DNA of 64,000 nucleotides from NCBI GenBank assembly GCA_017484005.1, contig JAFUTY010000050.1, positions 1 through 64,000 on the forward strand. Reading direction: 5' to 3'. Position 1 is the first letter of the stretch. Each line of letters begins with the position of its first letter. Origin of the DNA: Selenomonadaceae bacterium. Its GTDB lineage: Bacteria > Bacillota > Negativicutes > Selenomonadales > Selenomonadaceae. The notes beneath the pieces are model-generated. The model ran no database searches. It saw nothing but the letters and a program-made list of their open reading frames with translations, and was not told where the DNA came from. Positions 6,629-51,387 of the stretch are shown here, piece after piece. The position numbers were made by a program, and so were the translations under genes.

Positions 6629-7360
6629 ATGTTTGATTTTCTGGAAGATGCAGATCAATCTCCAGTTCGAATTAAAATCGTCGGCAGTGGAGATTTTGGC
6701 GAAAAAGTTCTAAATTCCATTAATCAAAGCGATGTTGCAGATTCCGAGATTCTCTATGTTTCGAGCGAGGATGAAGCTGCCGATGTTGAAGAAATGCTCG
6801 AAGAAACTGAATTGTTGATTTTGATATCGCGGGCGGAAGATGAATTTTCACGAAGAATTTTGAAACGTGCCAAGGATCTCGAAGTGAGATTGATCATTGG
6901 ATTTTTCGATTCAGACTGCTCGGAAGATGTTCAGGAAAATCTCGATGTGTTTGCAGTTGAAGATCCGATTGAATCGGTGCAGGCGATTATCACGATTGTC
7001 GAGAGCATTAAATCAGATGCAGTTGTCAGTCTGGAGTTTCGAGATGTTCAATACATTCTCAAGGGAAATCGCGATAAGAAAATGTTTGTCGCGACAAATA
7101 CAGATTCTGACGCTGAATCTACAGCTCGCGCGATTGTCGATTCTCCTCGATGGAAAGGCAGACTCGCCAATGCTAAAAAAATCATGATGAGAATTGTCGG
7201 CGATACTGATAAAGTCTCGATGGCTGATGTTTACATGGCGAGCACAGCTGTTCAAGAAGCAGTAAATCCAGATTCAGAAATTATCTGGGGCGCATCGATT
7301 GACGATTCGCTCGAAGATAAAGTTATCGTGACAATTATAACAATTGGATCTGAGCAATAA
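6629..7360 (+). CDS. Degenerate FtsZ-like protein lacking the GTPase signature
   Basis: 243 residues. The opening RIKIVGSGDFGEKVLNSI resembles the first strand and loop of FtsZ. The second half aligns by eye with the FtsZ C-terminal domain: LEFRDVQYILKG (T7 loop region), STARAIVDSPRWKG, AKKIMMRIVGD, and SEIIWGASIDDSLEDKVIVT. The tubulin signature GGGTGTG is absent: where it should be the sequence is LLILISRAEDEFSRRIL. The T7 loop reads S-x-E-x-x-D instead of N-x-D-x-x-D. It is therefore probably a non-hydrolysing FtsZ relative, much shorter than a true FtsZ. The start follows GAAAGTGAG. Role unknown. Confidence 0.68.
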   Translation: MFDFLEDADQSPVRIKIVGSGDFGEKVLNSINQSDVADSEILYVSSEDEAADVEEMLEETELLILISRAEDEFSRRILKRAKDLEVRLIIGFFDSDCSEDVQENLDVFAVEDPIESVQAIITIVESIKSDAVVSLEFRDVQYILKGNRDKKMFVATNTDSDAESTARAIVDSPRWKGRLANAKKIMMRIVGDTDKVSMADVYMASTAVQEAVNPDSEIIWGASIDDSLEDKVIVTIITIGSEQ

Positions 7361-7411: not shown

Positions 7412-8452
7412 TTATTCAGTGAATTTTTCAGCCCAACACTGTTTGATATACTCACGCATGTATTCTCGAAAATTTCCTTTGAAATCCCAAACAAACCGAT
7501 TTGCGTAGTATATATCAAGTTTTTCGCGCAAATCGAAGAATTTAATCACGCTCGCATACACTGGAACATCCTGTCCGATCAAAGCAATTTTTAAATTTGA
7601 ATCATCAAGAAGAGCATGTATATTCAAAAAATTGTCCGAATGCATTCCAATCATCCGCAGAATCCTCTTTGCAACTTCCATCATCACTTGAAGACTAGGA
7701 TGATTTCCTGCATAGAAAATCTGTTTACCAAAAAGATTTGTCTCAATATAGTCGGAAATTTTCACATCACAAAACCATTCGCGACTCTTCAATTCCGTAA
7801 GAGAATCCTCAGTCACATTTTGAATTTCTCTTGCTGGAATGAAATTTGGATCACAAATTTTATCTAGAATTGCATCGATATCCGGATTCATGTCAGATTT
7901 TTCCATGATTTCATTGACATATTTATCTCCGTGAAAGAATCGATAAGGAAACTCCCTCACATAGTGAGAGTTATTAATTCGCTGAGGGAAGTATCCATCA
8001 AAATATGTATTTGGAATCCAAACAATTTTGCAATTCTCATTCAATTTGCTCGAAATATTTTTTGTCGCCAGAATTTTTCCGAATTTATTGGTTTCCTTTA
8101 CACGTTGAGAAATGAAGAGGTCGACGAGCTGTAAAAACTGCCCCCCCCCCCCGAAAATCGATCTCACAAGATCATCATTATATTGACACACTGCTGGAAT
8201 TCTCAAAAAGAAATATTCCTTTTGAAATTGAAAATGACTCGACAACATTTGTTGCAAAGCTCCCATTTGGCAATTTCCATAGAGCATCACAATTTTTTTC
8301 CCAGATTCTTTTTTGATTTTTTCGATCGCATCGATGCAAGTTGATTCAGGCAATTTGTGTCTCAGAAAGTAATAGTAGTCAATGAATTGGTCATTCAATG
8401 TGACTTCGAAATTTTTGCCGTCTAAATCGATCGCCGCAAATTTGAATTCCAA
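7412..8452 (-). CDS. WcbI-family polysaccharide-modification protein, phase-variable, ON
   Basis: 346 residues from TTG 8452, which follows GAGGAGTGAG. The segment KKIVMLYGNCQMGALQQML carries the GNCQ motif of WcbI-type putative acetyltransferases, which act on capsule or other glycans; the fold is SGNH-like. A run of 12 G (8141-8152 on the plus strand as C) lies inside the frame and encodes Gly4 in SIFGGGGQF. With 12 G the frame is open to the stop at 7412. Slippage by one base would truncate it. The open frame runs further upstream, but that part overlaps the end of the next gene and is not conserved with the paralogue. The upstream neighbour at 8460-9499 is a same-length paralogue. Confidence 0.75.
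   Translation of the reverse strand: MEFKFAAIDLDGKNFEVTLNDQFIDYYYFLRHKLPESTCIDAIEKIKKESGKKIVMLYGNCQMGALQQMLSSHFQFQKEYFFLRIPAVCQYNDDLVRSIFGGGGQFLQLVDLFISQRVKETNKFGKILATKNISSKLNENCKIVWIPNTYFDGYFPQRINNSHYVREFPYRFFHGDKYVNEIMEKSDMNPDIDAILDKICDPNFIPAREIQNVTEDSLTELKSREWFCDVKISDYIETNLFGKQIFYAGNHPSLQVMMEVAKRILRMIGMHSDNFLNIHALLDDSNLKIALIGQDVPVYASVIKFFDLREKLDIYYANRFVWDFKGNFREYMREYIKQCWAEKFTE
8141..8152. repeat. Poly-C/G tract, 12 bp, in-frame
   Basis: Twelve consecutive C on the plus strand, read as 12 G in the WcbI-like gene. The length is in frame (ON). Homopolymers this long are prone to replication slippage. Confidence 0.9.
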
Positions 8453-8459
8453 AATTAAC

Positions 8460-9499
8460 TCACTCCTCGAACTTGTCTGCCCACCACTGCTTGATATATT
8501 CCCTTTGAAACTCTCGAAAATTGCCGTGAAAATCCCACAATCCTCGATTCGCGAAATAGACATAGCGTTCATTTCGAATATCAAAGAACTTCGTCACGCT
8601 GGGATACAGTGGAATATCTTGTCCAATTAACGAGAAATTGACGTTTGTCCAATCGATAAGTTCTCTGTATTGAAAGAAATTATCTGAACGCATTCCAATG
8701 GCTCTGAGAATTCGCCGTGCAACTTCCATCAAAACTTGCGGTGTTGGATGATTTTGCGAGTAAAACAGACGATTTCCAAAGATGTTATCTTCAACATAAT
8801 CGGCGATTTTAACTTCACAAAAATATTCACGCCTTCGAAGTTCAGCAATAGATTGCTCGACTTTATCCTGAATCGTTTTTTTAGGAATGAAATCCGGCGA
8901 GCTTAACTTATTGAGAAACGCCTCGATATCCGGATTCATTTGCGATGCGCTCATAGTTTCATCGATGTACCGATCGGCTAGAGGGAATCGTTTGGGAGTT
9001 TTTTCAGGCATGCGTTGTCTAGCAGCTAACTGTGGAAAATAACCGAGAAAATAAGTGTTTGGAATCCAAAGAATTTTACATTTTTCGAGGAGCTTTCCAG
9101 AAATTTTTCGAGTTGCAAGTTCTGGACTGAATTTATTGTTTGAATCCACATGTTGCGAAATGAAAAGATCGACTAGTTGTAAAAACTGCCCCCCCCCCCG
9201 TAAATCAAATCTACTTTATCGACATACTGACATACAGCTGGAACAGTTAAAAAGAAATACTCTTTTGGAAATTGAAAATGCTTAAGTAAAATCTTTCGAA
9301 GTGATAGCGTCTGACAATTTCCAAAGATCATTGCACATTTCTTTTTTGATTCTCGTTTGATCTTTTCAATTGCATCAATACAAACTGATTCTGAAACGTG
9401 ATTGCGAATAAGTCTATAATCAATTTCGGAATCGTTGAGTTTGAATTGAAAAGGGCTACCGTTAGAGTTTGCGGCAGTGAATTCAATTTCCAAAACCAA
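8460..9499 (-). CDS. WcbI-family paralogue, phase-variable, OFF in this sequence
   Basis: Two open frames, 9499-9173 and the rest to 8460, join across a poly-G tract. The first encodes VCIDAIEKIKRESKKK and the GNCQ motif (IFGNCQTLSLRK), then runs into Gly4-Ser-Phe-Tyr-Asn and stop. The second begins directly after the tract as QFLQLVDLFISQHV and continues to the end (KQWWADKFEE). With 12 G instead of 11 the gene would encode 346 residues, exactly the length of its downstream paralogue. It starts at TTG 9499 after AGGAAAGG, 3 bp after the DUF815 gene. A sequencing error in the tract is the alternative to real phase variation. Confidence 0.72.
9189..9199. repeat. Poly-C/G tract, 11 bp, out of frame
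   Basis: Eleven C on the plus strand, at the same codon position as the 12-bp tract of the neighbouring paralogue. One base more (or two fewer) restores the reading frame. Confidence 0.9.
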
Positions 9500-9502
9500 A
9501 AC

Positions 9503-10750
9503 CTACCTTTCCTGCGAATTGTTGAGTTGCCCGATATAATTTGTCACGAATTGCTGCGCAGTTCTTCCATTGCGTCCGGAGTGAGTCATTTCCCATCGCA
9601 ATGCTTCGATTCTCAAAGTTTCATCGTCAAGATCGATTCCAGATCCAGCGAGCATGTGTCTAATTATCGCGAAAAATTCATCTTGATCCGGCGCGTAATA
9701 ATGGACAATCAATCCAAATCGATCCGCTAATGATATCGTTTCATTCGCGCTATCGTCTCGATACAACTCGCCCTTAGATTCATCTCGATCCTCGAAATCC
9801 TCGCGAATCAAATGACGTCGATTCGATGTTGCATATATCAAAACATTTTCCGGACGAATCGATGCTCCTCCCTCGATTGCAGATTTCAAAAATTTGAATT
9901 CTGGATCTTCTCGCTCGAATGATAAATCGTCGAGGAAAATGATGAATCGTTTGCTCGGAAATTCTCTGAGCATCTCAAAAATTTTGGCGAGATCTTTCAA
10001 TTGCGGTTTATTGAGCTGCAGCAATCGAAGTCCCTCTGGATAAAATTCATTGATCAACGCTTTCACTGATGACGATTTTCCAGTTCCCCGTGCACCGATC
10101 AATAAAACATTATTCGCCGGCTTTCCATCAACAAAAGCGCGAGTGTTGGATCGCAGCATTTCTTTCTGTGATTCATAACCGACGAGATCAAAAAATCGAA
10201 TTGGATCAAAATGCTCAATCCCGACGAGTTTCTGCTTTTCATCATGCCAGCGAAATGCTCGATACACCGCCAAATCTCCATAACCATAGCGGCAGTAATA
10301 AGCGATCAATGCATCAGCGATTTCATCATAACTCGTGACTTTCGACAGCATGTTTTCCAAAAACAATTCCGGCTCGTCATGTTTTTCAAGCGTCGGCTGA
10401 TAATCTGAAATCAGTGGAAATGTTGAGACGAGATCATAATCAGAAATCATTGGCTCGATTATCTCGATGTCATGAACAAACGCCGCATGCAGACTTGTCC
10501 CGATCGATCCTCGATTTTTTTCCACAGTTTCAGACACGAGATTTGGTTTTCTTGTCAATAAATATAATGCATACTCGCGAATCACATTTCCGCGAAGTCC
10601 AAGAGTCTCCGCTTTCTCGATGAAAAGTGAAACTACCAGCGAAATATTTTCCGGCGATGGATCATAAAATACATCTTGAAACGCGCAAATCGCTGGATCA
10701 GTTTGCAATGATTGACAGACATATAGATCATTGACGTTCAAATTCGGCAT
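9503..10750 (-). CDS. DUF815-family AAA+ ATPase
   Basis: 415 residues. An N-terminal helical region of about 190 residues is followed by HFDPIRFFDLVGYESQK, a Walker A motif (GARGTGKSSSV) near residue 221, a Walker B motif (FIIFLDDLSF) near 275, and YATSNRRHLIRE, the sensor region. This is the DUF815/COG2607 pattern of predicted AAA+ ATPases. Its biological role is not established. The start ATG 10750 follows AGGAG. It sits between aroH and the two WcbI-like genes with only 3 bp to the next gene, so it is probably co-transcribed with them. Confidence 0.85.
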   Translation of the reverse strand: MPNLNVNDLYVCQSLQTDPAICAFQDVFYDPSPENISLVVSLFIEKAETLGLRGNVIREYALYLLTRKPNLVSETVEKNRGSIGTSLHAAFVHDIEIIEPMISDYDLVSTFPLISDYQPTLEKHDEPELFLENMLSKVTSYDEIADALIAYYCRYGYGDLAVYRAFRWHDEKQKLVGIEHFDPIRFFDLVGYESQKEMLRSNTRAFVDGKPANNVLLIGARGTGKSSSVKALINEFYPEGLRLLQLNKPQLKDLAKIFEMLREFPSKRFIIFLDDLSFEREDPEFKFLKSAIEGGASIRPENVLIYATSNRRHLIREDFEDRDESKGELYRDDSANETISLADRFGLIVHYYAPDQDEFFAIIRHMLAGSGIDLDDETLRIEALRWEMTHSGRNGRTAQQFVTNYIGQLNNSQER

Positions 10751-49856: not shown

Positions 49857-49995
49857 TGAAATCACCCCGACGGGAATATAACACACGAGCGATTTATATC
49901 TCAAAAAATTTTTTAATTCGGGACAAATCATTATTGCTCGAGTTAAACTCTTACAAGCAAAATTTAATCGATTGGGATTAGGAGGAATGGAAAGC

Positions 49996-50745
49996 ATGCC
50001 ACAAGTCACTTACAGTTTTCCGGGGATGAATTTTGTAATCACCGGCGCAGCATCTGGAATTGGAAAAAAAATCTCGGAAGAATTATTAACAGCCGGCGCG
50101 TCAGTTCTTGGAATTGACAAAAATCCAGAACCGTTGAATCAACTTGCCGCGATGAATCCTAATTTTGTTCCTGCCGCAGTTGACGTTCGAGACACTGACG
50201 GCGTCAAAAAATTCGTCGATGGATATGCTGCTGCCCGCGGAAAAATCAACGGCGCAGTTCATTCCGCTGGAATTATGATTGCATCTCCTCTTACGAGTTA
50301 CGATGAAGTGCAGGCACGTGAAATTATGGATATCAGTTTTTGGGCTGGAGTTAGATTGATTCGCACGACACATCGCAAAAAAGTTGTCGCACAGAAAGCA
50401 TCGAGCGTTTTGATTTCGTCAATCGCTGCATACAGCGGCGACAAATCGAATTTTGCATATTCTGGAACGAAAGCCGCGATTCAAACTGCAGTGCGATCCA
50501 TTGCGAAAGAAATTATTTCCGTCGGTGCAAGAATCAATTCTGTCAGTCCTGGATGGGTTAGAACTTCAATGACTAAAGAGAATCTCGAATCGAATTTGAT
50601 TCCGAAACGACTGCTCGAAAGAAGTTTTTTGGGAATCGGTGAGACTGAAGATGTCAGTGGAATCGTTCTATTTTTATTGAGCGAGCGTGCACGATGGATC
50701 ACTGGACAGGATTTCGTCGTTGACGGAGGATATTTGATTGGATGA
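49996..50745 (+). CDS. Short-chain dehydrogenase/reductase next to the PglD-like gene
   Basis: 249 residues from ATG 49996, where AGGAGG lies about 10 bases upstream; the ATG at 49987 touches it. FVITGAASGIGKKISEELL is the cofactor loop, HSAGIMIA near 88, SSIAAYSGDKSNFAYSGTKAAIQ with Ser and Tyr-x-x-x-Lys, and ARWITGQDFVVDGGYLIG at the end. It overlaps the acetyltransferase start by ATGA, so it probably makes the substrate modified next, for example in legionaminic or other sugar synthesis; that pathway is inference. Confidence 0.85.
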   Translation: MPQVTYSFPGMNFVITGAASGIGKKISEELLTAGASVLGIDKNPEPLNQLAAMNPNFVPAAVDVRDTDGVKKFVDGYAAARGKINGAVHSAGIMIASPLTSYDEVQAREIMDISFWAGVRLIRTTHRKKVVAQKASSVLISSIAAYSGDKSNFAYSGTKAAIQTAVRSIAKEIISVGARINSVSPGWVRTSMTKENLESNLIPKRLLERSFLGIGETEDVSGIVLFLLSERARWITGQDFVVDGGYLIG

Positions 50746-51387
50746 AACTCGGAATTTACTGTGCAGGCGGACTTGGGCGCGAAAGTTTTGAACTTGCAAA
50801 TCGATTGAATGATCGAGTTCCTCTTTGGGATGAAATTTTTTTCGTGAGTGACATTGATCTCGGGGGGGGGGGCAACATTGACAGCTCGACAATTTCATCT
50901 CGAAGATCTGAATCCTGATGACGTTGAGATTGTTGTTGCGAATGGAACTCCTCGATATCGCCGCGAAATTTTTGATCGAGCTGCATCTCGAGGATTCAAA
51001 TTTCGAACTTTGATCGATCCTTCAGCGAGCATTTCACCGACTTCGAAAATTGGTCGAGGCGTTTTGATTTTCCAAAATGTCATTGTCTCGAGCAATGCGG
51101 TTATCGGTGACAACGCCGCGATTCAACAAAGTACAGTCATTGGGCACGATGATTCGATTGGAAAAAATTGTGTCTTTGGATTGAATGCGGTGTTGAGCGG
51201 AAATGTTTCGATTGGCGATGAAAGTTTTATCGGTGTGAATGCATCGATTCGTGAAAAAATTTCGATCGGATCGCGCGTGATTATTGGGATGGGATCAGTC
51301 GTGATTCGATCGATTGAAAATGATCTCGTTGCAGTTGGAAATCCAGCTAGAGTAATTCGAAAAAATATTGATGGAAAAATTTTTTGA
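50742..51387 (+). CDS. PglD-like sugar acetyltransferase, phase-variable, OFF in this sequence
   Basis: The N-terminal frame begins at ATG 50742 (MKLGIYCAGGLGRESFELAN) and is closed at 50916 by a shift at an 11-G tract. The downstream frame continues as TLTARQFHLEDLNPDDVEIVVANG, then hexapeptide repeats (SISPTSKIGRGVLIFQNVIVSSNAVIGDNAAIQQ, GHDDSIGKN, IGSRVIIGMGSVVIRSI) to 51387. With 10 or 13 G the two halves join to 214 residues, the usual size of PglD-type N-acetyltransferases, which acetylate UDP-amino sugars for protein or flagellin glycosylation. The catalytic His is in VIGHDD. Sequencing error in the tract is the alternative. Confidence 0.77.
50862..50872. repeat. Poly-G tract, 11 bp, out of frame
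   Basis: Eleven G after CTC in the PglD-like gene. One fewer or two more restores the frame. Confidence 0.9.

Follow-up and report, generated by a model that had tools for sequence, protein, structure and literature searches.

Two adjacent WcbI-family genes in a window of 64,000 nt, taken from a 2.44 Mb genome assembly (72 contigs, 100% complete), each carry a long poly-G tract at the same codon, and these tracts are very probably simple-sequence contingency switches belonging to a phasome that extends over the whole genome. By sequence comparison, phase variation of the pair through slippage is well supported. In the mechanism that we propose, slipped-strand mispairing during replication, a process that we infer for living cells, would add or remove a G, and each WcbI gene would flip independently between the full 346-residue enzyme and a peptide ending just past residue 104; the state captured in this assembly would be gene 1 ON and gene 2 OFF. 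On the genome scale, a phasome of about 88 tracts would act by frameshift on genes that include those for glycan-making enzymes and TonB receptors, and through altered hexamer spacing on about a dozen promoters, and the device would be used by the whole genus. The features of the pair and of the gene upstream of it are as follows (window coordinates).

7412–8452, minus strand: WcbI-family gene 1, 346 aa, open frame (ON), with a start and a ribosome site; PF18588 at 113.4 bits, 4bqn at E 2e-8
8141–8152, minus strand: poly-G tract of gene 1, 12 G, codons 101–104 (Gly4)
8460–9499, minus strand: WcbI-family gene 2, closed frame (OFF), ending after GGGGSFYN; PF18588 at 100.1 bits past the tract
9189–9199, minus strand: poly-G tract of gene 2, 11 G, with nucleotide 301 as its first position, like that of gene 1
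9503–10750, minus strand: DUF815 AAA ATPase gene, separated by 3 bases from gene 2, which it precedes; PF05673 at 313.5 bits

Gene 1 runs from a TTG start at 8452, preceded by a GAGGAG ribosome site, to a stop at 7412, and gene 2 likewise begins with TTG, at 9499, where AGGAAAGG precedes the start. Nucleotide 301 (codon 101) is the first of the tract in both genes, and on the plus strand the two tracts read as C12 at 8141–8152 and C11 at 9189–9199, corresponding to poly-G on the coding strand. The reading frame is set by a difference of one base at this common codon, 12 G leaving the frame open and 11 G closing it. Past the tract of gene 2, 242 further codons are open in the homologous frame, and each gene encodes 346 residues when read through. 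The initial annotation had described two read-through proteins of 346 residues, G runs at a corresponding Gly4 site, and a frame open with 12 G but closed after Gly4-Ser-Phe-Tyr-Asn with 11 G; the gene coordinates, the shared tract start and the reading frames bear out all of this. Runs matching G8 occur 13 times in the window, compared with 0.06 in window shuffles.

Only 7 bases separate gene 1 from gene 2. Since the DUF815 gene, gene 2 and gene 1 lie on the same strand with gaps of 3 and 7 bases, the three may share one transcript, and if they are co-transcribed, the early stop in gene 2 could lower gene 1 as well by polarity. No obvious polysaccharide cluster was found around the WcbI genes. 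Beside the pair, at 6629–7360 on the plus strand, lies a gene for a 243-residue protein whose sole Pfam match is an FtsZ C-terminal domain (1.9e-11).

Assignment of both genes to the WcbI family, as initially annotated, holds by a wide margin, with PF18588 (Pfam WcbI) scores of 113.4 bits for gene 1 and 100.1 bits for gene 2 past its tract against a curated cut-off of 29.2 bits. The sole solved relative found for gene 1 is WcbI of Burkholderia pseudomallei (4bqn, E 2e-8). The structural report (4bqn/4bqo, PMC4104973) places the CoA sulphur at Cys14, which together with His201 bonds the acetyl carbonyl. Cys61 and His251 of gene 1 align with these two residues, and the Cys and His of the CoA site are invariant in a WcbI paralogue and in the congener protein. 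The Burkholderia enzyme thus belongs to the same PF18588 family and has the same CoA-site Cys/His as gene 1, but it lacks the Gly4 stretch (residues 101–104), which is an insertion relative to 4bqn lying between Cys61 and His251; phase variation is not mentioned in the available part of that report (PMC4104973).

A frameshift at the tract would retain Cys61 and remove His251 together with most of the fold. The short form, ending just past residue 104, should be inactive because His251 and the remaining fold are missing. From their family, these enzymes most likely O-acylate a surface glycan; for the solved WcbI, the authors saw no acetyltransferase activity with the substrates tried (PMC4104973). 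The initial annotation had proposed a phase-variable glycan modification. Its ON/OFF switch is strongly supported by the comparative evidence given below, while the glycan role is one that we infer from family membership.

The pair is part of a much larger set. The genome contains 88 G/C tracts of at least 9, with lengths of 9–19 and a mode of 12, and only 6 tracts of 7–8 (88 at 9 or more against 94 at 7 or more), which indicates that the long tracts are a class of their own, not just the far end of one continuum. Among intragenic tracts, 21 of 69 are in frame (19 of 59 by strict criteria), a share indistinguishable from one third that fits a freely drifting length. The genes read around the tracts encode, among others, glycosyltransferases (GT2, GT4, GT8, GT11, GT61 and DUF4422), FkbM and other methyltransferases, hexapeptide acyltransferases, WbqC, TupA ATP-grasp and radical SAM proteins, as well as TonB receptors, RTX-repeat proteins and a type ISP restriction-modification enzyme. 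By this annotation, the putatively switched genes fall into categories already familiar from phasomes elsewhere. The genome has many tandem arrays of paralogues with tracts, and the WcbI pair is one of them; like the pair, the arrays at L040, L048, L050, L056, L062, L067, L087 and L090 hold two to four tract-bearing paralogues each.

Several individual loci deserve mention. Four TonB-dependent receptor paralogues (L044, L047, L053 and L059) have a poly-C tract at the same signal-peptide site. The type ISP restriction-modification enzyme contains a tract of 10 G, in frame (L094:834-843), and a phase-variable methylome via this enzyme is possible. A tract of 14 G (L078:2084-2097) is found within a short leader reading frame, shortly before a flagellin gene starts; the genome also carries flagellar P- and L-ring genes and a YlbM-like gene. 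At L042, L064, L072, L079 and L089 the contig end is no more than about 100 bases away from a poly-G tract, and such assembly breaks mean that some assembled lengths may be inexact and that more tracts may be hidden.

About a dozen further tracts each sit in the spacer, 14–22 long, that separates a TTGACA-like from a TATAAT-like hexamer (14 matches listed, of which L049 is probably due to chance and L076 falls inside a reading frame). From this placement between −35-like and −10-like hexamers, the tracts are probably promoter-spacing switches. Loci of this kind are L035, L065, L070, L071, L079, L088, L089, L092, L098, L099 and L100.

Within the window itself, a third phase-variable candidate that the initial annotation had overlooked lies far from the WcbI pair, in a PglD-like gene whose ATG overlaps the stop of the preceding short-chain dehydrogenase gene.

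49972–50745, plus strand: short-chain dehydrogenase (SDR) gene, directly upstream of the PglD-like gene; PF13561 at 5e-46
50742–51387, plus strand: PglD/NeuD-like sugar O-acyltransferase gene, out of frame here; PF00132 hexapeptide repeats at 2e-18 past the tract
50862–50872, plus strand: poly-G tract of the PglD-like gene, 11 G, after 40 codons, shifting the gene out of frame

Long tracts extend to all relatives of this genome that were compared within the genus. Tracts of at least 9 were found in 36 of the 36 congeners examined (3–44 each), as against 0–6 in 23 genomes from other families of the class, some of which have more than 100 runs of 7 or more. Near-identical recent duplicates in congeners differ in tract length (13 vs 10 and 10 vs 14), and the tract-bearing WcbI paralogues of this genome have 12, 11 and 11 G.

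Loss of mismatch repair was considered as the cause of the tracts and rejected, as mutS and mutL are present in the window's own genome (and in most congeners) and the MutS mismatch-binding motif GDFFEMF is intact; slippage is thus not due to lost mismatch repair. Neisseria and Haemophilus phase-switch despite having repair genes. MutS of seven congeners (L262, L263 and L265–L269) is missing 5–6 residues in the mismatch-binding domain relative to other families of the class. MutS of the window's own genome keeps these residues, so the congener deletion does not explain its tracts.

The varying lengths also bear on how complete the switch is. Slippage of RNA polymerase or of the ribosome on 11–12 G might give some full-length protein whatever the tract length, in which case the tract would tune dose. 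Transcriptional slippage on long homopolymers is known and could act on top of replication slippage, but dose tuning leaves unexplained both the different DNA lengths of near-identical copies and the tracts in promoter spacers, and we regard it as an unlikely account of the system.

The sequence next to the tracts is, unexpectedly, non-random. Across the 88 tracts of this genome (L035–L104) the flank consensus is roughly GA.TT.ATTCTC-Gn-CA..TTTTT, with the information mainly in the roughly 7 bases on either side of the tract. Flank information amounts to 7.4 bits, whereas 500 draws of control runs of 3–6 G never exceed 2.2, and in matched controls with C on both sides it reaches at most 1.9, compared with 7.3 for the tracts. 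A general context of G runs was rejected as the source, since runs of 3–6 G have different neighbours. The signature persists in a non-redundant subset of tracts, and paralogy artefact was rejected by leave-family-out tests in six genomes of the genus, which separated tracts from short G runs with AUC values of 0.84–0.95. A protein motif was likewise rejected, given that none of the three reading phases lacks the signature, which occurs in G-sense and C-sense genes alike. When a matrix was derived from G-sense genes, C-sense genes scored a mean of 3.4 on the poly-G strand, compared with −6.6 for the control and −0.7 on the other strand. The signature is therefore tied to the poly-G strand, whatever the phase or gene direction, and is a property of the tract DNA and not of the protein. 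Matrices mostly fail across species (0.18–0.54 from and to this genome), and those of three congeners resemble one another; the flank signature differs by species among the six species tested. The idea that the flanks are inverted-repeat arms was rejected, as pairing between matched flanks does not exceed that between shuffled flanks (p 0.66).

A signature that follows the poly-G strand, ignores gene direction and phase, and differs by species would be expected if the tracts existed for a reason of the DNA itself, for example as a protein-binding or structure-forming element, with switching as a by-product. This explanation is improbable, because surface-glycan and receptor genes make up most of the genes with tracts, one third of the intragenic tracts are in frame, and the flanks are without inverted-repeat coupling. 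The strand-oriented flanks, shared by unrelated genes yet species-specific, could reflect a sequence-specific process that writes or maintains the tracts, such as a tract-making enzyme or a binding factor. Alternatively, flanks could pass between scattered tracts by short-patch conversion, with concerted evolution as the outcome. Either way, new switches would have a dedicated origin instead of depending solely on chance mutation. We put this forward tentatively, and selection on slippage rate, happening to differ by species, could instead be the source of the signature. A literature search that reached few subscription papers found no description of such a flank signature, which seems undescribed; this part of the finding is the least explained, and it bears on the open question of how tracts arise and spread to new genes.

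There are four WcbI paralogues in the genome, and three of the four have a tract at the same codons, the third being located elsewhere in the genome and overlooked by the initial annotation. These three are only 56–58% identical, indicating that the tract has outlived much change. In the fourth paralogue, GGAGAAGGA replaces the tract and the gene is locked in frame. Motif-like bases are nevertheless found at its site (TTAATTTTT-GGAGAAGGA-CAACTTTTTCA), lending some support, from sequence, to a site preference for tract formation, although the site may be the remnant of a tract that eroded. Only 1 of the 36 congeners has a WcbI gene, where a run of 10 G lies in frame at a different codon; by this comparison the family has acquired poly-G twice.

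The paralogues also bear on whether the length in gene 2 is real. Short-read data are prone to errors in long G runs, and the ends of several contigs fall less than 100 bases from a tract, so the 11 G of gene 2 might be an assembly or consensus miscall with the true lengths equal. However, 11 G is also found in the third WcbI paralogue, and a single wrong length would do away neither with the 88 tracts and the gap at 7–8 nor with the matching pattern in the independently assembled genomes of 36 congeners; with 12 G in both genes, the loci would be slippery all the same. We consider such an error very unlikely. Comparison of the two OFF paralogues past the tract gave mismatches of 0.32, 0.22 and 0.54 at codon positions 1, 2 and 3, indicating that purifying selection still acts on these copies although they are OFF in this assembly. 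That gene 2, out of frame in this assembly, is a decayed pseudogene with a fixed frameshift, leaving gene 1 alone to matter, is extremely unlikely, because decay is expected to bring stops and equal change across codon positions, in contrast to the 242 open codons past the tract and the purifying selection seen against the second OFF paralogue.

For mucosal pathogens of the Proteobacteria and Campylobacterota, poly-G phase variation is textbook knowledge. Here it would be relied on by an entire genus that seems not to have been studied; its members are probably Gram-negative Firmicutes, as the flagellar P- and L-ring genes, the TonB receptors and the YlbM-like gene of this genome suggest. With switching throughout the genus and 88 tracts in one genome, surface diversity in such communities may far exceed what gene content suggests. 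In Neisseria, promoter-spacer phase variation is brought about by homopolymer length between the −35 and −10 hexamers, which alters their spacing. About a dozen loci here resemble that system, to which they are unrelated by descent, but unlike Neisseria promoter switching, the spacer tracts accompany a much larger intragenic set. A close comparison is with the poly-G phasome of Campylobacter, in which 5–81 genes per strain are phase-variable (18–39 in C. jejuni; PMC6321876). Both systems combine intragenic frameshift with promoter tracts and have a large accessory component, and in both the G/C tracts are numerous and fall mainly in surface and glycan genes (PMC6321876). The present genome differs in its unrelated lineage, its 88 tracts and its mode of 12 G against 9–10 in Campylobacter, and in contrast to phasomes of the Campylobacter/Helicobacter type, it has kept its mismatch repair genes. 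The species-specific flank signature, established in genomes of this genus, may be a further difference. The WcbI pair as poly-G switches is thus of a known kind, and what is new is the size of the system, its lineage and, above all, the flank signature.
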